Origin: Vibrio echinoideorum
GTDB lineage: Bacteria > Pseudomonadota > Gammaproteobacteria > Enterobacterales > Vibrionaceae
NCBI RefSeq assembly: GCF_024347455.1
Contig: NZ_AP025484.1
Location: 620,001 to 684,000, forward strand
Reading direction: 5' to 3'
DNA: 64,000 nt
The notes under the pieces are model-generated. The model was given only the letters and a program-made list of their open reading frames with translations, did not search any database and had not been told where the DNA came from. How positions within the stretch are numbered: the first letter of the stretch is position 1; each line of letters starts with the position of its first letter. Positions 3,636 to 32,385 of this stretch are shown piece by piece. The position numbers and the translations under genes are program-made.

Positions 3636-6353
3636 TTATCCTTTATTACGTTCAACAATGCGCATCACAGCGCGTTCACCTTCGTCTGTATTAAGGTATT
3701 TATTTATTTGCTCTGGGTCGTCTACAAACACAACATTGACTGGTGGGGAAGAAACATTAACGGCACTACTGGCCTGGTTATTATTCACTTGCCCAATTTG
3801 TGCGCCTCTGGCCATTTGCATGCCATGCTTCATTTCTTTCATCATTGAGCTCATCCAACGGAAATTATCGGCCTGAGTAGGGTTGAGAACCATTTCATTT
3901 TCACGAAGTAACCAGGTTCCTTCATTCTTTTTAGGAACGCGTTCAATGCCATCATGAGCTTGCCCTTGGTAACTTGACCCTTTCAAGCCTGCCAAGAGAG
4001 TGGCACCTTGAGAGGTGGCGGTAGCAATCGCAGGAATACTGGCATACCAAGGTTGAACGGTCGTAGCATTAGAAATCGCTTGATACAAATTAATGCCAGC
4101 TTGGGCAATCGCAAACCCTTTACTTGCTGCAAACATGAGTCTGTATATTCCCGACTGTTTACCCGCGTAGACCTTTGCCAATTCGGCCATTCCACCAAAC
4201 AGTTGCGAACCAGCACCAGTGAGCATGGCTGCATTTTGGAGCGTGGCATCAAAACGTTCCTGAGCAGCTTTCTTTTCTATTTCACTGAGGTTCATTTCAT
4301 GATCAGTGTATAAAAGTTCACGGTTAGCAAAATACTCACGCTCAAGTGCATCCATTAACTCTTGATTGCCTATTGCTTGCTCATAAGCCGCTTGGAATGA
4401 CTCACTTAGTGCGATGCTTTTTTCTGTGAAAGCCGCTTTTTCTTGAACAACAGCTTGGCTTTCTAAGCTTGCTTGCATGGACAATCGCTGTAAGTAGGCG
4501 GTTTGCAATTGGTCGGATTCATCATAAAAGGCGTCAATAGCTGAGGTGTCTTTTGGTTTGTCTTTTGCTATTTTTTCATCAATAGATCTCGCTTCAAGCA
4601 TGAGTTTTTTAGCCAATTCTTCATTGATGCCTTTTAGTGAACCATACTCAATCTCATACTTAAGCTTCGCTGCTTCACTTGTTTCACCGTAAAGCGCATT
4701 TTGTTTTCTTAGGTTTTCTAACAGCTTATTGGCTTGCTCTTCGAGTTTTGGTTCGATTGAACTTGATTCTTTCTTTGGAGCCTCTGGTTTGTTTCTGAGG
4801 GCATACAATTTATCTTCTAACTCAATAGCTTCTTGTGCTCGTAATTGCTCCTTCTGACGCAACACGTCTAGTTGAGCTAAGCGTTCTTCAATATTATTTG
4901 TGCCTGTTTGCTTGCTAAGTGTTTCTATTTGTAATCGAGTGGATTCTAGATCGTCAGTGACGGCGGTGAGTGCGTTATTGAGTTCTTTTTCACGAAGTTT
5001 ATTCATCTTTCCAAGTAGTACGTCTACTTGATCAGACAGTCCTTTGGTCTCTTTTTCTGCTTTTGTATTTGAGAGCGCGAAATACCCAATCGCACCAGCT
5101 GCCATCATGGCAATACCTGCGGGGCCGCCTAGCATGGCCATAATGCCTGAACCTGCTCTTGCCACCACATTCAGACGAGTTTGAGCGGCGGTTAAAGTGG
5201 TAGTGGTTGCTGTTAATTGCACTCGCTTAGCGGCCAGTGTTGTTTCAGCACCAATCGCACGGAATTTTTGATTATTTGATAGTTTCATCACCTCAAGTTC
5301 ACGAACTTCTGCGGCCAGCTTGGCTTCTAAAGAGCGAAGCTCTGTAAGGTTTGCCTGCTCTTGAGTACGAGTGACTGTGATAGATTGAACTTTTGCGGCT
5401 GTCATGGCTAATACAGCAGTTGAACCACGACTTAATGCGGTAACCAGTGATAGCTCAATAATAGTAGTGACAAGATCGGCATTTTCTGCAAATAGCTCCA
5501 TCGTGCCCGCAGACGCTTCCAGAACAGCACTAAACGAATCAGAAATAGGCGCTTCAAATGCGACCACCGCTTTTTCATAGGCACGAGTGTTTTCAGCATA
5601 CTTGGCGTTGATATTGTCAGCGGTTCTGGCGGCCGCTCCGTCATACTCGCTGAGGGCGGTTATTAAGGTTTCTTTAAAAAAGTGACTGGTGACTTCGCCA
5701 GCAAGCATCATTCTGCGAAATCCACCTGCAGATAGACCTGCGGCTTCATCAAGCTTATTAAGCAAGCCAGGCATAGGCTCAACCACCTGATTCAACTCTT
5801 CAGCACGAACAATAGGAGACGCTAACGCTTGGGATAAACCATACATGGATTGGCCAAGCTGAGTTGTTGATGCACCAGCCTGGCTTTGTACGTTACTCAT
5901 CCCTTCAAAAATTGCCCTAGACTCTTTTTGAGTAACAAGACCCGCCTCTTGCAAACTAACAAGGCGGGCGTAGTTGCCTGACATATCAACGAGCGTCTTA
6001 TTGTGCTCTTTAGACACTTGGTTAAGGTATTGTTCGGTCTCAATCCACTCTTCTTGTCCGCCAACAAGTGCGGTGATTTGAGTGCGAATATCTTGATATT
6101 GACCGAGTTTGTCGGCGGCCTGGTTCGCGGCATAAAGCGCAGAGAATCCACTCGCCACACCAAGCACTTGATTTTTTAAACTGCCAAGGTTCGCGCTAGT
6201 TTGGGTCGATTGGGTGGATAATCCTTTAAGCTTGCCTTGAGTCGTATTGGCGCTGCCGCCCAACTTAGTGACCGCGCCGCCAGCTTGATTGACTTGCCCG
6301 ATAAATTGCTTGTTCTCAGCATCAAATCGAAGGGTGAATTTTAAATCACTCAT
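3636..6353 (-). CDS. Tail tape measure protein
   Basis: 905-residue protein that sets tail length and is threaded through the tail tube. The N-terminal about 60-240 region has the tape-measure domain pattern (many Gln/Ala/Leu, LGQYQDIRTQITAL-type helix and an EELNQVVEPMPGL segment). Hydrophobic stretches follow near residues 300 and 405-430 (Gly/Ala/Met rich), then long coiled coil (about 330-400 and 440-680) and a second hydrophobic stretch near 730-790. It is by far the largest tail gene and lies directly after the tail chaperone pair, the conserved position. It overlaps the upstream chaperone frame by 8 bases. Confidence 0.93.
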   Translation of the reverse strand: MSDLKFTLRFDAENKQFIGQVNQAGGAVTKLGGSANTTQGKLKGLSTQSTQTSANLGSLKNQVLGVASGFSALYAANQAADKLGQYQDIRTQITALVGGQEEWIETEQYLNQVSKEHNKTLVDMSGNYARLVSLQEAGLVTQKESRAIFEGMSNVQSQAGASTTQLGQSMYGLSQALASPIVRAEELNQVVEPMPGLLNKLDEAAGLSAGGFRRMMLAGEVTSHFFKETLITALSEYDGAAARTADNINAKYAENTRAYEKAVVAFEAPISDSFSAVLEASAGTMELFAENADLVTTIIELSLVTALSRGSTAVLAMTAAKVQSITVTRTQEQANLTELRSLEAKLAAEVRELEVMKLSNNQKFRAIGAETTLAAKRVQLTATTTTLTAAQTRLNVVARAGSGIMAMLGGPAGIAMMAAGAIGYFALSNTKAEKETKGLSDQVDVLLGKMNKLREKELNNALTAVTDDLESTRLQIETLSKQTGTNNIEERLAQLDVLRQKEQLRAQEAIELEDKLYALRNKPEAPKKESSSIEPKLEEQANKLLENLRKQNALYGETSEAAKLKYEIEYGSLKGINEELAKKLMLEARSIDEKIAKDKPKDTSAIDAFYDESDQLQTAYLQRLSMQASLESQAVVQEKAAFTEKSIALSESFQAAYEQAIGNQELMDALEREYFANRELLYTDHEMNLSEIEKKAAQERFDATLQNAAMLTGAGSQLFGGMAELAKVYAGKQSGIYRLMFAASKGFAIAQAGINLYQAISNATTVQPWYASIPAIATATSQGATLLAGLKGSSYQGQAHDGIERVPKKNEGTWLLRENEMVLNPTQADNFRWMSSMMKEMKHGMQMARGAQIGQVNNNQASSAVNVSSPPVNVVFVDDPEQINKYLNTDEGERAVMRIVERNKG

Positions 6354-6666
6354 GTTGGTTTAACTCCTCCGCTAAGGTTCGGGCAATAGTTTTAAGTTGT
6401 TGGTATTGGGATGGGTTCGTCTCTCTTTGAGCCAGCTCAGAATCGGCTTTTACGGCTAGCACATCCATACCTAAGCACACATGTTGATTGAACTTGAGAA
6501 AGCCTGGTACTGAGAGCCACCACTCCACTGCAGGCCAGTTCTCTTCCCAAAGTGGAAAGGAATCATCCGGTTTCTCTTCTTCTGACGCTCCCCATAAGGC
6601 AAGTTCTTGCTGCCAATCCTCTTCCTCTTTTTTTGTGGCAGCACGACGGTTCACAATCGCGCGCAC
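6346..6666 (-). CDS. Tail assembly chaperone, frameshift extension (DUF1799-like)
   Basis: About 106 residues if started at the GTG at 6666, but more probably made as the C-terminal half of a -1 frameshift product of the upstream gene. The frame is open without a stop back to the slippery heptamer at 6678-6684. The protein is acidic with a KKEEEDWQQELALWG segment and a Trp-rich centre, matching the T part of G/GT-type tail chaperones (DUF1799 in Mu-like siphophages). The fusion would be about 218 residues. It acts in the cytoplasm on the tape measure protein during tail assembly. Confidence 0.8.
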   Translation of the reverse strand: MRAIVNRRAATKKEEEDWQQELALWGASEEEKPDDSFPLWEENWPAVEWWLSVPGFLKFNQHVCLGMDVLAVKADSELAQRETNPSQYQQLKTIARTLAEELNQHE

Positions 6667-6671
6667 TGCCT

Positions 6672-7001
6672 CTATGAGTTTTTTTCTGCGCCTTGTCCTG
6701 AGTTTGCCTGTAAGTAGGCATCCACCACACCCTTCATAAAGGGAGGGTTACTGATCACCAAATCTAAGTGCTCAGGCGTAAAATCAAGTGGCTGCTCATC
6801 AGCATCAGCAATACCGGACCAGCCTTTTATTACTTTTTTTACTTCCTCTTTGAAATAACGAAGCACCTTATCTGACTGCTCGACATCGAGAAGAAGTAGA
6901 TCGAGAGTAATGTTGTGGGTTTCGGTTTTTCCGCCATCGACTGCCAGAGTAACGGTGGCTGGCCAATCCTTAACGAGACGTTCTTGTTCAATTTTAAGCA
7001 T
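6672..7001 (-). CDS. Tail assembly chaperone, G-type
   Basis: 109-residue soluble protein between the tail tube and the tape measure, the position of lambda gpG. It contains a Lys/Glu-rich middle and ends in ...GAEKNS just after an A AAA AAC slippery heptamer, so a minority of ribosomes should shift to -1 and continue into the next frame. The family is conserved by position more than by sequence. Started at ATG 7001. Confidence 0.8.
   Translation of the reverse strand: MLKIEQERLVKDWPATVTLAVDGGKTETHNITLDLLLLDVEQSDKVLRYFKEEVKKVIKGWSGIADADEQPLDFTPEHLDLVISNPPFMKGVVDAYLQANSGQGAEKNS
6678..6684 (-). promoter_or_regulatory. -1 programmed ribosomal frameshift site (A AAA AAC)
   Basis: On the minus strand the last codons of the G-type chaperone read GCA GAA AAA AAC TCA TAG. 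The heptamer A AAA AAC is in the correct phase for -1 slippage. After slipping, reading continues CTC ATA GAG GCA GTG CGC GCG into the DUF1799-like frame with no stop. This mirrors the conserved frameshift of dsDNA phage tail chaperones. Confidence 0.85.
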
Positions 7002-7067
7002 GGTGTTAATCCTTATTTAAACAGGGTTTAAACAGCGTTAAATGCTGGACTTGCTGAATGGAAACGC

Positions 7068-7997
7068 TTAGCGAGTCGCGAATACGTCCACATTGCCAAT
7101 TGGCAGTAATGGGATCGAAAGTGTTTGTGTACCATCTTGCTCGCCATAAGTAGGGCGACCCAATTGTACTTTTTCACTTTTCCATTCGAACTGGTTGCCT
7201 ACAGCACCATTACCGAACACCACTACATGTTCTGCGCCAGCCTCAGCTTTGCCAAAGCCGTCCCAATCAGATTGTTCGGGCGCTTCAATCACAATCGTTG
7301 CGGTAGGTTTGTAATCAGTAATGAGCACCTCTTCATGGCCAACATATTCTTGGTAGACCACCGAGTTTGCTTGGTCGTATTCCAAGCTAATTAACTTGAG
7401 GGCTTTGCCGCCAATAGTGAATGACGAATTTTGAACCCCAACTTTGAGCGGAGTTTGCCAGGCTGTAAAATTAGGTACTGGCAGTGAAGCATCCGTCACA
7501 GGGGCGAATAAGCCAGTAAATGAAAACTTAATACCACCAAACTCTTTGGCTTTGACTGAGAACGATAACGAACCACGTGCGCCGGTTACTTTGTGTAATG
7601 ATCCAGATTGGTAAAAGTAGAATGTCAGTGAGCTTGTTGAGTCTTCATCAATCAAATACAGCGTTTCATCCGCCGCACCGCCTGATGAGGTATCACGCTC
7701 TTCAATCTTTCGTAGGCAGGCTTTCATTAAGTCACCATAAGGTGCCGCTTGTGTAGTGGTGTTACTTGCCGCCATATCCACGGTGAATTCAACGGTCACA
7801 TAGACTTCAGTCATGATCTCAGCCGAGTTACCCAATACGCCATTATCGTAATCGAGAGACGACGATTCACCTGCCATTGGAGTGATAGCAAACTCACGAC
7901 CAAGTAAATAGTTAGGTGAGCCACCATTGATCGCATCAACGCCGTATGTTGATTCCACGGCAAAGGCGAGTATTTTTCTTCGTTCTTTACGGGCCAT
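7068..7997 (-). CDS. Phage tail tube protein
   Basis: 309-residue protein starting MARKERRKILAFAVEST. A longer frame extends to 8051, but the ATG at 7997 is preceded by GAGG and overlaps the upstream stop by 11 bases, the usual arrangement. Sequence is beta-rich with many Thr/Ser/Gly, and the block after residue 40 (LDYDNGVLGN) resembles tail tube proteins of B3/D3112-like phages. Its position between the tail terminator and the chaperones is the expected one. No sheath gene precedes it, which argues for a non-contractile tail. Confidence 0.8.
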   Translation of the reverse strand: MARKERRKILAFAVESTYGVDAINGGSPNYLLGREFAITPMAGESSSLDYDNGVLGNSAEIMTEVYVTVEFTVDMAASNTTTQAAPYGDLMKACLRKIEERDTSSGGAADETLYLIDEDSTSSLTFYFYQSGSLHKVTGARGSLSFSVKAKEFGGIKFSFTGLFAPVTDASLPVPNFTAWQTPLKVGVQNSSFTIGGKALKLISLEYDQANSVVYQEYVGHEEVLITDYKPTATIVIEAPEQSDWDGFGKAEAGAEHVVVFGNGAVGNQFEWKSEKVQLGRPTYGEQDGTQTLSIPLLPIGNVDVFATR

Positions 7998-10811: not shown

Positions 10812-11969
10812 TCAATCCTCTTCTTTAGCGGCTATGAACTGCTCTTTGGTCAAGCCTGTTGCTTTAAGAACGGCAATCTCTGCCTCAGAAAGCTCGCTGT
10901 CTTTCTTCTTATCTTTTGGCGGTTGCTTATCTTGGGTTTGAGTTGCCTTTAGCGCGGCGATGGCAGGTCGAGCATCAAGCATTCCCTTTAGTGCAGCAAC
11001 GCCTTGTTGGCCACCAAACTCAGTAAGGTACTCAACTTCAGCTTCTACCACTTTGCCTTCTTTTTTTGCGTTATCGATAAGCGTCGAAAGGCTCTCTTTG
11101 TCAGTGCCCGCCTTAAGAACTGCAAGCTCACCAACTACACCGTTATAGGCTTTGATTGGCACGTACTTGCTTAGGTCTACGCTGCCACCACTAGCTTTAA
11201 GTGCCACCATTTGAGTTTCAAGTCCGTCGGCTTTTTCTGCTTTTACCTTTAACGCATCGAGCGCTGTTAGGGCGGCTGTGGCCAATTCGTCTGTTAGTTC
11301 GCCATCGACAGTAATGCCGAGACTGGCTAACAGCTTCTTGAGTGCTTCATTCACGAATGTATCCTCCGCGTAGCTGTAAAGATTCACGTCTACACCAGGC
11401 TTGGAGAGACGCACATTGATGTCCGCTGCCAGCGCTGCTACCGATTCCATGTTGGTAATACCAGGATCGTTAGTAATGGCTGCCATGCGTAAAAAGAGAG
11501 GTTTGCCTGTTTTCTTGTCATAAGGAAAAACGGCAGAGAGATAGGCGTATTCGTTGCCATCAATGAGAGACTGAGCGCTGTCAGTCCAATCAGGACGAAC
11601 GTAGAGACCGTGGCCTTCACGCCATTCGATATCGGTTTCAGATGTGATCCACCCAGATGCTGGAGCTTTTTGCCCGGTCTGTTCGGTATAAAGGGTTTGG
11701 TGATCGTAATCGACAAGAACTTTGTTGCGCGTCGCTTTAGTGGCCGCAATAAAAGCATTGGCTGATTCTGCATCAAGATACCAATGGCCGTCTTCTGGCT
11801 CAGTAGGGCGACCATCTGGCGCTTTAAACTTACCCGCAGGCAATAGCTGACACCAACCATCGTCCGACAACGAGAGTTCCGCAGTCAGAATGGCCATGTT
11901 TTCATTTGCTTTGTTAGCACAAAGAACGGCTTCTGCGATTGGGTGAGGTATAAAGGTTTTTGTTTTCAT
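10812..11969 (-). CDS. Prohead protease and scaffold, Mu gpI-like
   Basis: 385 residues from the ATG at 11969, chosen because GGAGGGC precedes it; an ATG 9 bases upstream is also possible but lies on the Shine-Dalgarno. The N-terminal half matches the Mu I protease (LLPAGKFKAPDGRP, LVDYDHQT, GWI, YLSAVFPYD). The C-terminal half is Lys/Ala/Leu-rich and helical, and should act as scaffold. It matures and shapes the prohead. The gene starts a late transcription unit: a repeated 18-bp motif lies 37-55 bases upstream. Confidence 0.9.
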   Translation of the reverse strand: MKTKTFIPHPIAEAVLCANKANENMAILTAELSLSDDGWCQLLPAGKFKAPDGRPTEPEDGHWYLDAESANAFIAATKATRNKVLVDYDHQTLYTEQTGQKAPASGWITSETDIEWREGHGLYVRPDWTDSAQSLIDGNEYAYLSAVFPYDKKTGKPLFLRMAAITNDPGITNMESVAALAADINVRLSKPGVDVNLYSYAEDTFVNEALKKLLASLGITVDGELTDELATAALTALDALKVKAEKADGLETQMVALKASGGSVDLSKYVPIKAYNGVVGELAVLKAGTDKESLSTLIDNAKKEGKVVEAEVEYLTEFGGQQGVAALKGMLDARPAIAALKATQTQDKQPPKDKKKDSELSEAEIAVLKATGLTKEQFIAAKEED

Positions 11970-12005
11970 GCCCTCCATATTGAAGGGCGAGAGGGGTTAG
12001 GTGAG

Positions 12006-12023
12006 ATTCACCTCGGTGTATGT
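12006..12023 (-). promoter_or_regulatory. Repeated late-operon motif, copy 1
   Basis: Plus-strand sequence ATTCACCTCGGTGTATGT, containing the palindrome CACC-N2-GGTG. An almost identical 18-mer (one base different) lies at 22858-22875, upstream of the lysis genes. In Mu the activator C drives promoters at just these two places (P-lys and P-I). Either an activator/operator site or another shared leader element. Confidence 0.5.
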
Positions 12024-12273
12024 GTTTCAAATACACCAAATAAAGAGAGGAGCAACAGAGGACCGTCGAAATAAAAAAGGGAATTAAAAAACACGTTCAA
12101 ACGCTTTGTAACGAGACACACTGCAAAAGTAGAACGTTGATGCCTGTTACTCATTTTGAATGAATGTGCCCCGTTTAACACCCGTTTAAATTTGATATTT
12201 GCTGTCGTTGAACAAGTCGTTTGATAAGAAAAAACTGCAATCTTGCCCTATCTAATTCATTGCGACGGTAAGT

Positions 12274-12306
12274 AAAAAGTGAGTCAACACTAATTTGCAG
12301 ACTCAC
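12274..12306 (-). terminator. Rho-independent terminator of cassette 1
   Basis: On the minus strand a 7-bp stem GTGAGTC/GACTCAC (12279-12306, loop of 14) is followed directly by TTTTTACTT. It lies about 50 bases past the stop of the nuclease-like gene, so it would separate the cassette from the phage late operon. Confidence 0.65.
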
Positions 12307-12356: not shown

Positions 12357-13421
12357 CTATACTTCGGTACGTATGAGTTCTATAGCTATAGCATCTTTAA
12401 ATGACTTTCTGTCGATTGACCAATAGTCGAGAAGGCATCCAATTAAGCTCTTTACAGGAACTGAAAGCGAAGAGTAGTTTGTGAACTCTTTTGATGTAGC
12501 GCATAACTCTAATTCTTTAGCGACATTAAACAAGGATGTAGTATGAGCATTACTTGAGAGAAATTCAGCGAGTATCGAACTCGGTAATGTATCAAATTCA
12601 GTTTCAACTTTACGCTTGACCTGATTTGCAACACTTTTACCTTCTTCAGAGAACTGTTCAACTAGAGATAGAGACATATTGATCATGTTATCAATTCCCT
12701 CTTTTCCCATTGAGCCATATGTGAACCCTTCCGCTAATTTTTCTCTTCTTTCATTTTGGTCTAAAAATGAAAGTTCTCGCATGATGTAATCAACTCCAAT
12801 AGAAAACAACGACAATACGTACGTAAAACACCGATACGCTGTTACTGAGTGAGTCGTGTGCATGACAGTTTGTTGGGCAAAAAATTCAGCTACCTGCAAC
12901 CATTTGTTACAAGTGTCAAAATTCAACCCATTGGACAGCATTGCTTTGCTTAAGATGATTTGACCTTTCCAATCTCCATCTAACTTTCCAAGCGAATATA
13001 ATTCTATGTTATTAACAAACTCTTCATCCGAGAGCCTAAGGGAAGGAGTTGCCTTTTTGGAGAGTTTAGATAAGAAGACGCCATCAAGAACCAAAACACC
13101 TAATTGCTTCCCGAAGTCTTTAACAGCTTCACGCTTCTCCGTTGTAGCTACAATAGCATCATCAGCAGCTACAGCCTCAGTCAAACCCTTAACCCAAAAA
13201 ATACGTTCAATCGCTTGTGGCGTTTTTTTGTTTTTTACATCAACAATCGTTATATTTCGGGCAGTGGGCGAAGCTCTACTGTATAGCCATAAATCGATAT
13301 CAGTTACATCAAAACCTTCATAATTAAACGGAACACCTCTAACAACATAGTATCCTGCTTTATTAAAATAACTACGCAGGTGCTCTTCCATCTCAAAGCC
13401 TTTACCTAGCTGTTTAGCCAT
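12357..13421 (-). CDS. PD-(D/E)XK nuclease-like protein (cassette 1, gene 2)
   Basis: 354 residues. The N-terminal about 120 residues have the layout of a restriction-endonuclease-like fold: Glu12/Glu13 in the first helix, Asp41-Ile-Asp43 in a strand, then Asp61-Val-Lys63 (TIVDVKNKK), followed by a helix and a strand ending AIVATT. These fit the E...D...(D/E)xK active site of Mrr/Hjc-type nucleases. The rest (130-354) is helical with no recognised domain. Its ATG overlaps the previous stop as TAATG, so it is coupled to the 420-residue protein. It is not a Mu core gene. Function as a DNA-cleaving defence effector is inference. Confidence 0.7.
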   Translation of the reverse strand: MAKQLGKGFEMEEHLRSYFNKAGYYVVRGVPFNYEGFDVTDIDLWLYSRASPTARNITIVDVKNKKTPQAIERIFWVKGLTEAVAADDAIVATTEKREAVKDFGKQLGVLVLDGVFLSKLSKKATPSLRLSDEEFVNNIELYSLGKLDGDWKGQIILSKAMLSNGLNFDTCNKWLQVAEFFAQQTVMHTTHSVTAYRCFTYVLSLFSIGVDYIMRELSFLDQNERREKLAEGFTYGSMGKEGIDNMINMSLSLVEQFSEEGKSVANQVKRKVETEFDTLPSSILAEFLSSNAHTTSLFNVAKELELCATSKEFTNYSSLSVPVKSLIGCLLDYWSIDRKSFKDAIAIELIRTEV

Positions 13422-14683
13422 TATTTAATTCCTCCCGTTCGTAGTGCGCTTATCATATCATTTGTAACAAAAGGGCTTTGTTTAACTTGCTTTCTACGAG
13501 TAACCTCACGATTAATCTCGGGACCAATAAATTTGGTTATCGTTGCACCAGGAAGTGAAATCAATGATTCTTGGCTAGCATCTCCGCTTTGAAGTACCTG
13601 AAGAGCTAACTCACCAACTTCTTTCTTTAGTAGCCGCATCATATAACCGGTTCTACCTTTCTTTGAACCTTGGAAGGTTTGCACAACCCCTTTTACTTCT
13701 AGAACTTTGTAATCTTGGCCTATTGCGTCAATTGGACCAATTGGTTCACCTCGAATCAAAGTTCGGAGTAATGCTCCAATATCAGTTATTCTCCCTCGTT
13801 CATAGTAACTCTTAGTAATGCCGTATGTTAGAGATGCAACAAAAGCTTTTGCTAAGTCGAATGCGTCCTCTAACATTGAATTACTATACTTAGAGAATGC
13901 AGAAGGTAAAGTGAGGAATCCTGTCTCTTCAGAATGGTTACATACTGCATTGAAGTCGTACAAGCCTACAGAGTGAACTTTATCGAATAGTTTCTCTCCG
14001 AGAATTCTTTTTGCCGTAATCACATCAATACAACCTTTACTTTGTAGCATTGAAGAGAGCTCTCTTACTAGGTGCTCTTCTTCTTGCTTTAAAGAATCAA
14101 GCACTTTCTTTACCTTTACTGCGGAGTCTTTTCTAAATAAATTCCCGTTAAAGTATATTTTCTCATTACTCTGTAATGTCTCTACATCTACAAATCCATA
14201 TAACTCAGAATCAAAAATCACTTGGTCCATATTTTTTTTAGAGAGTTTGTGTGCATCAGACAAATACTCTCCAACCTCATTAAAACCTACAGGTTTATTT
14301 GAGGAAATTTCTGCTAGCTCAATCACTGAATGTTCTTCAGGTCGAGGAGATAGAGATTCAAATATCTTAGAAGTATGTTGTAACGCTGAAGTAGTAGTAA
14401 CACCAAGTACAGCTACACCGTTGCTACTTCTGTCAATTAACTCATGGTCAGATAAAGTGTTTAGTATAGTTGGAAGCTCAAAAGAGGTATTTATATTATT
14501 GGTACTAGCCAAAGCCTTCAGCCGTTGTTCGTTCAAGACCTGTTCTTCCGATGCAGAGATCGCAGATAACAGAATTCCCGTTTTACCTGCCAAGTAAGTC
14601 TTTTCGTAAATCCCTTGATTGTTGGTATTTGCTAGTTTGTTGGTATTGTGAATTAACCACGCACCTTTTGTTTTTGAGTCCAT
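13421..14683 (-). CDS. Unknown protein with probable winged-helix domain (cassette 1, gene 1)
   Basis: 420 residues; I do not recognise a named family. Residues about 32-97 read like a winged-helix domain: a helix with LSAISASEEQVLNEQRLKALA, then FELPTILNTLSDHELIDR and a wing NGVAVLGVT. The remainder is mostly helical, with a Gly-rich basic patch QTFQGSKKGRTGYMMRLLKKE near 345-365. No signal peptide or membrane segment. It is the first gene of a bicistronic unit with a nuclease-like protein, so it may be the recognition or control subunit. Its own upstream region contains a large palindrome, consistent with autoregulation. Confidence 0.6.
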   Translation of the reverse strand: MDSKTKGAWLIHNTNKLANTNNQGIYEKTYLAGKTGILLSAISASEEQVLNEQRLKALASTNNINTSFELPTILNTLSDHELIDRSSNGVAVLGVTTTSALQHTSKIFESLSPRPEEHSVIELAEISSNKPVGFNEVGEYLSDAHKLSKKNMDQVIFDSELYGFVDVETLQSNEKIYFNGNLFRKDSAVKVKKVLDSLKQEEEHLVRELSSMLQSKGCIDVITAKRILGEKLFDKVHSVGLYDFNAVCNHSEETGFLTLPSAFSKYSNSMLEDAFDLAKAFVASLTYGITKSYYERGRITDIGALLRTLIRGEPIGPIDAIGQDYKVLEVKGVVQTFQGSKKGRTGYMMRLLKKEVGELALQVLQSGDASQESLISLPGATITKFIGPEINREVTRRKQVKQSPFVTNDMISALRTGGIK

Positions 14684-14715: not shown

Positions 14716-14796
14716 GTAACGTTTGAGTTACCGCTAATTTAGTACGCATTTTAGCTCATATTAAAATTACACGCATCTCTACTAGGTGTAATTTAA
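14716..14796. promoter_or_regulatory. Palindromes in the promoter region of cassette 1
   Basis: Inverted repeat TTAAAATTACAC (14761-14772) / GTGTAATTTAA (14786-14796) with a 13-base spacer, and a second one GTAAC-N6-GTTAC nearer the gene (around 14716-14731). They lie in the AT-rich 220-base gap upstream of the 420-residue protein, where the promoter must be. Their size suggests operators for a dimeric regulator. Confidence 0.55.
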
Positions 14797-14904: not shown

Positions 14905-15372
14905 TTACTCGTTCAACATTTTCATTAAGAACGCTGAGAGAATGTCGTAGATTTCGGCTTTGTCGTCCTCATCAACGCCCAACCATGGACGAGCAGGGAT
15001 CGCCGCGTTTGAAGGTCGCAGATCTGGCGACCCACCATAATGATGAATTGCGCCGTACTCCAGAGGTGTACCAAAAAACAAAGTATTGCCAAATGATTGG
15101 TAAGTTAAATGGCCACTAAGGAATTTATTTAAAGTAAGAATCTCATTCTTATGTTTCGGTTTGTTCTTTTGATACTTTGGAGAAAGCGGTGCCCACGGAA
15201 CACCTTCTGGGCTTTTTTGATCGCGAAAACGTTGGTCATGGCTAACGAGCAACATCTCGCCAATGTCTCTCATCGCAGGTTGTAAGCTCGTCCCTTGTTT
15301 TAAAAACTGGTTTAAACGACGTTGAAGTTTCTCTTGACCGTCAAAGTCGATGGAGTAATGAACGCCTGCCAT
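14905..15372 (-). CDS. Phage virion morphogenesis protein, Mu gpG-like
   Basis: 155 residues, N-terminus MAGVHYSIDFDGQEKLQRRL. A central motif RFRDQKSPEGVPWAPLSPKY with P-W-x-x-L-x-x-x-Y is diagnostic of the Mu gpG/phage virion morphogenesis family, and the C-terminal IPARPWLGVDEDD also fits. It functions in head-tail joining. In Mu, gpG is normally followed by the protease gene I; here the nuclease cassette sits between them. Its start overlaps the stop of the 65-residue upstream gene. Confidence 0.92.
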   Translation of the reverse strand: MAGVHYSIDFDGQEKLQRRLNQFLKQGTSLQPAMRDIGEMLLVSHDQRFRDQKSPEGVPWAPLSPKYQKNKPKHKNEILTLNKFLSGHLTYQSFGNTLFFGTPLEYGAIHHYGGSPDLRPSNAAIPARPWLGVDEDDKAEIYDILSAFLMKMLNE

Positions 15373-22947: not shown

Positions 22948-23349
22948 CTAAAACAGGGCGGGTTGCCTTCTGGCGTGTTCAATTTTGCGCATGGTGGCGA
23001 TGATTTCGTAAATGGCTTTTTCAGACAAGTGATGCTTTTTAGCTAACGGCTTGATGTTACGGCCAGTAAACTCATTATAGATCTCCATGTTACGAATTTG
23101 ACGCTGTAGTGCATCACCTCGCGGTAAATAGACCTGACCACCACCGATGAACTCCCCAAGTGCTAAAGAGAGCTTTAAAGATAATCCAGATTGCTCAATG
23201 CCATTTTGAATTAACTGAGCATCGAGCAGGGTATGGATCTCATGCAGCAGCACTGGCCAGAACTTCACAGGGTCGCCTGCCATAAAGTCAATGTGATCGA
23301 GCAGGCTTTCATCAAGCTCTAAATGTTCAAACATATCTTGTTGCGGCAT
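22948..23349 (-). CDS. mor: Mor-family middle transcription activator
   Basis: 133 residues. The N-terminal half (FEHLELDESLLDHI ... DPVKFWPVLLHEIH) is a helical dimerisation domain. The C-terminal half contains G-G-G-Q-V-Y-L-P-R-G-D, the hallmark of Mor/C activators, followed by the helix-turn-helix KPLAKKHHLSEKAIYEIIA (about 103-122). Mor switches early to middle transcription in Mu and is the only activator of this family visible here, so it may serve the late promoters as well. A hairpin overlaps its ribosome binding site. Confidence 0.95.
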   Translation of the reverse strand: MPQQDMFEHLELDESLLDHIDFMAGDPVKFWPVLLHEIHTLLDAQLIQNGIEQSGLSLKLSLALGEFIGGGQVYLPRGDALQRQIRNMEIYNEFTGRNIKPLAKKHHLSEKAIYEIIATMRKIEHARRQPALF

Positions 23350-30626: not shown

Positions 30627-31106
30627 TTAATGCTCCTCAAAAAGGATCAGTTCAGGCTCTAAGCTACGGTGAACATTTTCATGGTGGTACGCCACATCTC
30701 GCATTACTTGAGTAAGGGAAGCGAGGGTCTCTTCTGGATTTTCTCGGTTCGAGTAAAACTTAATGAGCAAGCTAACTGATTGAGTAAATGAACTTTGAAG
30801 TTCATTAATATCCTTCGCTTCGCAAGTTCGCCCCGCAGGGATAGCAATTAATAACTTGTGACTAGAGGCTGCGAGATACTGAGTAATCAGTTCGATACCA
30901 CAGGCATATTCGAACGGACGAATAAGGCTTGCTGGCATGCGTCCATTTTCCATCCATTTGTATAAATTCCATTTATTGGATTGTCCCATTAAATCAGCAA
31001 CGCGATCGACCGACAGATTTTTCTTTTGTCTTGCATGCTCTAAGCACAGCTCCATCGCATGCCGAAGCGAGTTTGGGTGAACGTTCTTCCAACTGCGTCT
31101 GGCCAT
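30627..31106 (-). CDS. Early phage DNA-binding-like protein (159 aa)
   Basis: 159 residues. The N-terminal part contains a probable helix-turn-helix ([33 protein letters not shown]). The C-terminal half is helical and acidic at the end. It lies between Ner and transposase, where Mu-like phages of Vibrio often have a small regulator of this kind. Stop codon 2 bases before the transposase Shine-Dalgarno. Role unknown, possibly an early repressor. Confidence 0.6.
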
Positions 31107-31240
31107 TGGAAATCTCCTAAATTACATGTTCCAAATAAAGAGGATCATTGCCCCTAGTGAATAGATCTTGTTTTGCTTAATCTGAGATTACGTTGAGTTA
31201 TTAAGGAATAAGCATGAATACAAGATTAAATCCCACCAAA

Positions 31241-31665: not shown

Positions 31666-32385
31666 ATGACCAAAGAAACTTTAAAGAACCTTTCAGGTTT
31701 GCAAGGTAAACCTGAAAGAGTTGATTCAATCCAAGATCGATTGAATTTTTTAATGGAGCAAGCAGGAAACCCTAATGCATTTGCCAAACAAACAGGTTTG
31801 TCTGTTAGTGGGCTCAAACGCTATTTAGGTGGTGGGGAGCCTACTGCATCCAAAATAATACAAATTGCAGACTCTATAGGAATCAGTGCAGGTTGGTTGT
31901 TGACTGGTAAAGGAAAGATGAAGGAAGACGACACGGCTTCCCCTTCAAGTTCAACAATAGAAGAAGAGTTCGAGTTAATACCTGGCTATAACGTTCAGGT
32001 TTCGGCTGGGCATGGTTGTATTACAGGAAAGGACTCTGTACCAACTAGGCATTTAGCATTTAGACGTAAATGGTTGAAGTGGAAGAGCTTTGATTCGAAA
32101 GATTTAACAGTAGTATGGGCAAAAGGCGATAGCATGCACCCAACTATTAGCGATAATGATACGTTAGTCGTGCACCTAGGCCGCAAAGAACCTAAAGATG
32201 GCTATATATACGTATTTAGAAATGGTGATGAATTATTTGTGAAGCGTTTCCAGGATGGATTGGGTTCTTGGAAGTTAATAAGTGATAATCCTATTTACGA
32301 TAAGCTCGAAATAGTAAAAGAAGATCAGCATCAGTTTGAAGTAATTGGGCAGGTTGTGCATCTTGCGAAAGACATTGCGGATTAA
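31666..32385 (+). CDS. Prophage repressor, CI/LexA-like with S24 peptidase domain
   Basis: 239 residues. N-terminal HTH (NAFAKQTGLSVSGLKRYLGGGEPTASKIIQIADSIGI, about 37-73). C-terminal autoproteolysis domain with the catalytic pair Ser156 (GDSMHP) and Lys193 (FVKRF) and a possible Ala114-Gly115 cleavage site. This is the type that is inactivated after DNA damage, so this Mu-like phage is probably SOS-inducible, unlike Mu itself. It is the only phage gene on the plus strand and is divergent from ner. Between it and the terminus lie 217 bases. Confidence 0.93.
   Translation: MTKETLKNLSGLQGKPERVDSIQDRLNFLMEQAGNPNAFAKQTGLSVSGLKRYLGGGEPTASKIIQIADSIGISAGWLLTGKGKMKEDDTASPSSSTIEEEFELIPGYNVQVSAGHGCITGKDSVPTRHLAFRRKWLKWKSFDSKDLTVVWAKGDSMHPTISDNDTLVVHLGRKEPKDGYIYVFRNGDELFVKRFQDGLGSWKLISDNPIYDKLEIVKEDQHQFEVIGQVVHLAKDIAD

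Follow-up and report, generated by a model that had tools for sequence, protein, structure and literature searches.

Several described nuclease systems resemble in part the locus considered here, a two-gene cassette in a Mu-like prophage of Vibrio echinoideorum. The cassette lies in a stretch of 64,000 nucleotides (contig NZ_AP025484.1, positions 620,001 to 684,000; this whole stretch is referred to as the window, and its own numbering is used throughout) and encodes a 420-amino-acid (aa) tandem winged-helix protein followed by a 354-aa PD-(D/E)XK nuclease. The Mrr/Mrr_cat type IV restriction enzymes share the catalytic fold of the nuclease, but in the pair the reading and the cutting of DNA apparently reside on two proteins, and the nuclease domain is followed by an all-helical C-terminal domain. 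Further nearest nucleases are Can2/Card1, which carry a CARF sensor, and EndoMS/NucS; in these comparisons, too, the all-helical domain distinguishes the window protein. Gabija is likewise a two-gene nuclease defence system, but it joins an ATPase-TOPRIM nuclease (GajA) to a UvrD-like helicase (GajB), whereas the similarity of the pair amounts to a single weak and partial GajB-like match of the 420-aa protein (PADLOC 2023; E 0.0022, 14.6 bits). The same scan returned no GajA match, and membership of Gabija was rejected. WonAB (PD-T4-4), as described in PMC12137116, consists of two adjacent genes with a PD-(D/E)XK effector and has a prophage-borne Vibrio example. WonA is, however, an ABC-type ATPase, whereas the partner in our pair has modelled winged helices and no Pfam ATPase match; membership was rejected since neither Pfam nor the AlphaFold2 (AF2) model reveals an ABC/OLD-type ATPase partner. 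No Pfam, NCBIfam 2026 or PADLOC 2023 model names the pair, and no published name was found in a search largely confined to PubMed Central (PMC), without preprints beyond PMC and most subscription papers. Within this scope, the statement of an earlier sequence-only reading of the window that the pair is not a named system holds.

The 354-aa protein has a restriction-endonuclease-type fold with the alpha-beta-beta-beta-alpha-beta core, which together with the D...(D/E)XK catalytic residues places it in the PD-(D/E)XK superfamily. Across 74 aligned sequences, the window protein included, Glu12, Asp43 and Lys63 are kept in all and Asp61 in 73, with Glu in the remaining one. The sequence-only reading had predicted such a nuclease from D43 and D61-V-K63 and had named a different fold as an outcome that would speak against it; residues and fold both bear the prediction out. 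The top PDB rows from Foldseek are the modification-dependent MspJI and AspBHI, plus Cdn1, all at E > 0.01. The window nuclease matches no Pfam family and, at E 1, no PADLOC 2023 family, and within the family 19 of the 74 sequences match Mrr_cat with E no higher than 0.1 (lowest 2.6e-5).

The AF2 model of the 420-aa protein (mean predicted local distance difference test score 66.7) contains winged helices at approximately residues 24–95, 115–180 and 197–260, and a less certain fourth at approximately 271–366. Successive helix-helix-helix-beta-hairpin modules, the hallmark of tandem winged helices, are present, and the model matches winged-helix proteins in the PDB, which supports the earlier assignment of a probable winged-helix protein. 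Pfam has no family for the protein at E 1, and the weak Pfam families matched by a 54-member alignment of it include no ATPase.

We analyzed the pair at 74 loci, 72 from one scan of genome contigs and two from viral contigs, queried with the winged-helix protein, so that orphan nucleases would be missed; near-duplicates are apparent (L009/L010, L011/L012, L024/L025). The genes are adjacent, on a common strand and with the partner first in 72 loci; in the remaining two (L062 and L067) the contig breaks off within the partner gene or directly behind it. Both are full-length single open reading frames (ORFs) in 63 loci, while each of the remaining 11 has one gene that is split, shortened or truncated by the end of the contig. 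The genes overlap, at -4 or -1, in 64 of the 72 loci holding both, and the pairwise distances of the two proteins correlate with r 0.964 (64 pairs; none of 1000 permutations as high). No third gene is constant across loci. Restriction-modification of types I–III was rejected: no cognate methyltransferase was found in the unit, and the commonest neighbour family occurs in only seven of the 74 loci.

The pair is distributed widely but sparsely. At E 0.001 the nuclease has 615 homologue clusters and the winged-helix partner at least 1193. Record titles assign the genome loci to Proteobacteria, Bacteroidota, Cyanobacteria, Nitrospirota, Myxococcota, Acidobacteriota, Gemmatimonadota, Chloroflexota, Firmicutes and further groups, with a single Lokiarchaeota bin, although many of these records are metagenome bins, in which the assignment of contigs may be wrong. 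Four Bacteroidota copies (L016, L017, L021 and L023) are 71–77% identical to proteobacterial ones, which points to horizontal transfer or mis-binning; L021 (Dyadobacter) and L023 (Pedobacter) are named strains. In the window's own genus the partner gene occurs in two of 196 genomes, one of them the window's own, and in its class a partner match was obtained in three of 369: the window's own, a strong one (G452), and a short marginal one with two stops that we discounted. Among 11 plasmid records with the partner, nine also hold the nuclease, six as detected by tblastn and three by the nuclease profile on the next gene (E 1.4e-30 to 3.6e-12); the latter three are from Rubrobacter marinus, Streptomyces and Rhodococcus, with partners 24–27% identical. 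Actinobacterial plasmids with distant partner homologues (24–33% identical) make up L099–L103. The pair is thus a widespread mobile unit and is not specific to the phage in the window.

In at least 20 of the 74 loci the flanks contain genes of Gabija, Lamassu (LmuB), type I restriction (HsdM or HsdR) or candidate defence systems (PDC-M68 or PDC-S02). This number is a lower bound, as only families recurring in at least three loci were counted, at any position within flanks that reach 10 kb at most, with family names checked by PADLOC on example loci. Gabija GajA is found in six loci, 23–2103 nt from the pair, and PDC-M68B in seven, always as the first upstream ORF of at least 100 aa and no more than 116 nt away; type I methyltransferase genes cluster beside the pair in three. 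Of 369 genomes from the window's class, 14 have GajA (PDLC00073) and 10 have PDC-M68B (PDLC04774), from which approximately 0.02 GajA and 0.01 PDC-M68B would be expected by chance within 10 kb of 74 random sites, a guide only, which assumes genomes of about 4 Mb. The sequence-only reading had also held that homologues confined to virion genes would refute a defence role; instead, 72 of the 74 loci lie in bacterial or archaeal genome records, in addition to the defence neighbours just described.

In the window, the cassette is carried by a Mu-like prophage, as judged by a PHROGs scan (ten ORFs, the two cassette genes included) that identified terminase, portal, minor head, major head and transposase proteins; further matches in the prophage are a late transcriptional activator (22948–23349), a small terminase and a CI-like repressor (31666–32385). 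The flanking genes are equivalents of Mu gpG and gpI, as the sequence-only reading had proposed, with PHROG matches and tblastn to Mu G and I in agreement. The G+C content is 0.381 in the cassette and 0.47–0.48 in the late genes on either side, as expected of an insert. The same reading had the cassette breaking the late operon, of which the position between gpG and gpI stands. In Mu, the late promoter PI is located just before gene I, and the cassette therefore probably sits at a boundary between transcription units and need not interrupt an operon. PI is one of four Mu late promoters, together with Plys, PP and Pmom (PMC4287176).

When 30 prophage proteins of the window were compared with the 74 loci by tblastn (76 tested, of which two were re-fetched copies), two further Mu-like carriers were found, which brings the total to three. 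In L074 the pair has a gpF homologue on one side and the protease gene (phrog_328, E 9.9e-82) on the other and is on the strand opposite to both, with the gpG homologue elsewhere; in L030 (Shewanella sp. PS-2) it lies between a homologue of the window's late activator and the terminase genes. The pair therefore precedes the protease gene in two of three Mu-like prophages, on opposite strands, and occupies a different site in the third. Carriage by three such prophages, once on the opposite strand, argues that it is not a virion gene. A role as a Mu-like late or virion gene was rejected on the L074 orientation and on the lack of any tblastn match to the pair in the gpG–gpI (G–I) stretch of 11 Mu-like phage records. 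A TIR-type effector gene (L074 12383–13267; PADLOC E 1.7e-41) is found 61 nt downstream of the pair in L074.

These 11 records were hand-picked from 73 and 184 hits, with gpG in VW-6B and ST405 taken from the record annotation. In eight (ZX4290, Mu, SuMu, VW-6B, 3927AP2, ST405-OXA48phi1.1, H72 and UMP151) the G–I junction is a spacer of 196–258 bp, and in three it holds cargo: AcrF1 with a winged-helix gene (JBD30), a type VI retron (MuM16-1) and an SGNH hydrolase (HS6). The retron-like pair of Shewanella phage MuM16-1 (L077 2818–4060; RT_VI E 3.2e-96, HTH_VI E 7.4e-36) is annotated merely as an RNA-directed DNA polymerase and a transcriptional regulator. Within the window's genus, a gpI homologue is present in five of 196 genomes and the slot is readable in four, of which three hold cargo (the window, L093 and L094) and one has approximately 250 bp (L095); L096 is broken. 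In L093 (5639–7482; G040) two paralogues (320 and 309 aa; 39% identity across 215 residues) fill the slot; judged by eye they have membrane segments, neither Pfam nor PADLOC gives a match, and there is a weak match to phrog_17460. The L094 slot (4771–7411; G157) contains a 166-aa protein that Pfam, PADLOC and PHROGs place in no family, a 489-aa fusion of Hcp and DUF3289 (type VI secretion system type) and two small proteins that appear membrane-like by eye; for a Mu-like phage this cargo is unusual. In the literature searched, we found no paper that describes the G–I slot as a defence hotspot across Mu-like phages; PMC4378225 reports that the anti-CRISPR genes of Pseudomonas Mu-like phages are grouped in a single plasticity region, RGP G.

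From the nuclease fold and catalytic residues, the three modelled winged helices, the constant pairing with correlated divergence, the scattered spread across phyla and the defence-gene and Mu-prophage contexts, we consider it marginally favoured that the pair is a mobile defence system of two proteins, directed at phages or other invading DNA and carried here as prophage cargo that would protect the lysogen. The sequence-only reading of an anti-phage type of prophage cassette is supported by fold, defence neighbours and non-virion distribution. The defence role is suggested by context, and for the mechanism we infer the following: (i) the 420-aa chain would bind DNA, or a feature formed by DNA and protein, that is characteristic of an invader; (ii) it would recruit or switch on the nuclease, presumably in a complex of the two proteins; and (iii) the nuclease would cut DNA rather than RNA. 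The winged-helix protein is thus likely the reader and the nuclease the effector. As for the trigger, the unit contains no nucleoside triphosphatase (NTPase), helicase or methyltransferase, so that discrimination would have to come from recognition by the winged-helix protein or from the timing of its release; it might recognize some modified or otherwise unusual feature of DNA, in the manner of type IV enzymes, or infection might displace it.

Several observations weigh against this proposal. The window proteins fit no defence family well, the partial GajB-like match being the only PADLOC result; the AF2 model is only partly confident in the third winged helix and has low confidence for the fourth; and the members are known here through sequence, context and models. 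Correlated divergence is equally expected of any two co-inherited genes. The neighbour base rates are drawn from one bacterial class, whereas the loci span many phyla and include near-duplicates, and 54 of the 74 loci have no counted defence neighbour (families in at least three loci). In two Paenarthrobacter plasmid records a 377-aa gene after the partner has no nuclease-profile match, and these plasmids may have a different second protein. Finally, the G–I slot also houses anti-CRISPR and other genes.

The main rival, which we regard as rather unlikely, is a toxin-antitoxin or abortive-infection module, in which the nuclease would be a self-directed toxin acting on DNA or RNA, and the winged-helix protein, translated earlier from a shared mRNA, would restrain it and repress the operon through the upstream inverted repeat until infection frees the nuclease. 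The gene order and tight overlap, with the winged-helix gene first, fit such a module, as does the (weak) inverted repeat. Typical antitoxins evolve fast, whereas the first protein here is long and its C-terminal region is conserved like the nuclease domain (mean conservation 0.67 and 0.68, respectively), which argues weakly against the module. In addition, five loci (L026, L028, L055, L060 and L069, of which L028 and L060 are metagenome bins) combine a full-length nuclease ORF with a partner ORF that is split or truncated although no contig edge is near, a situation hard to reconcile with a lethal free nuclease, although it may reflect decay or sequencing error. There is a precedent in WonB, a prophage-borne PD-(D/E)XK nuclease that is toxic when overproduced and shuts down translation, but its authors argue against a simple toxin-antitoxin pair (PMC12137116).

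A non-immune pair for maintenance, repair or stabilization of a plasmid or prophage, which would benefit the carrier element, appears improbable: the scattered distribution and the several unrelated defence systems nearby fit immunity better, and Mu-like proteins related to those of the window occur in only two of the 74 loci, in a survey limited to Mu-like elements. Very improbable is a counter-defence or phage-lifecycle pair that aids the phage itself, for although the G–I slot is shared with AcrF1 and its helix-turn-helix gene in JBD30 and the RGP G grouping is in line with it, 50,697 phage records, searched with two queries for the partner protein but none for the nuclease, gave no match, loci in viral contigs number two as against 72 in genome contigs, and the L074 pair opposes the late genes.

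The coordinates of the cassette and its surroundings are given in Table 1; the two ORFs, their strand and their stop/start coupling are as the sequence-only reading had described. The hairpin after the nuclease gene folds at -13.0 kcal/mol (z -3.7), and its stem and T-tract agree with the terminator claimed for the cassette; the terminator scan, which permits loops of 3–8 nt, did not list this hairpin, whose loop is 14 nt. Upstream palindromes had also been claimed, of which one perfect repeat was found; it is weak and only mildly unusual, as 12 of 500 shuffles hold one as long. The promoter scan found no sigma-70-like site in the spacer upstream of the pair and nothing above chance in the whole region (five sites, 7.7 expected). 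Because of the terminator-like hairpin and the L074 copy on the strand opposite to the late genes, expression of the cassette in the lysogen independently of the late genes is plausible.

Table 1. Features of the cassette and its flanks, in window coordinates.
Feature	Position	Strand	Basis
420-aa tandem winged-helix protein, first gene; putative DNA reader/regulator	13421–14683	-	ORF, AF2 model, PDB matches, homologues
354-aa PD-(D/E)XK nuclease, second gene	12357–13421	-	nuclease residues ~7–122, all-helical C-terminal domain ~132–354
TAATG stop/start overlap coupling both genes (one base common)	13419–13423	-	sequence
Glu12 of nuclease	13386–13388	-	sequence
Asp43 of nuclease	13293–13295	-	sequence
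D61-V-K63 catalytic motif	13233–13241	-	sequence and conservation in 74 aligned sequences
Terminator-like hairpin and T-tract after nuclease gene	12274–12306	-	perfect 7-bp stem 12279–12285/12300–12306, then TTTTT
Perfect 9-bp inverted repeat, 13-nt loop, upstream of pair; possible operator	14764–14794		weak
Mu gpG homologue, tail completion/Neck1, flank	14905–15372	-	phrog_26 E 4.5e-36; tblastn to Mu G
Mu gpI homologue, head maturation protease, flank	10812–11978	-	phrog_328 E 8.5e-103; tblastn to Mu I

Outside the cassette, a 10-bp inverted repeat (90% complementary, 3-nt loop) is present at 12015–12037, just upstream of the gpI gene, where the stretch 11985–12045 folds at z -3.8. Two TTAT-N6-ATAA dyads at 31198 and 31625, located between a minus-strand ORF ending at 31106 and the plus-strand gene of the CI-like repressor at 31666, are possible operators.

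A broader proposal, which we put forward tentatively, joins the pair and its site: a two-protein, NTPase-free immune system that crosses phyla, in which four tandem winged helices, arranged like those of the Pol III subunit C82/RPC62, would gate an Mrr/Can2-like nuclease on invading DNA, while the G–I junction of Mu-like phages would be a general exchange slot for defence and counter-defence cassettes. As a two-gene nuclease defence type, the pair would be of an already known kind, with an unusual NTPase-free architecture. If the proposal is correct, a compact mobile immune system would extend from Proteobacteria to Bacteroidota, Cyanobacteria and Actinobacteria that is missing from PADLOC 2023, and it would bear on how a two-protein nuclease tells foreign from own DNA without energy-driven proofreading or methylation. 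The G–I junction, in which a type VI retron, an anti-CRISPR pair, an Hcp-fused protein and two uncharacterized paralogues were found, would then be a place to mine for further systems.
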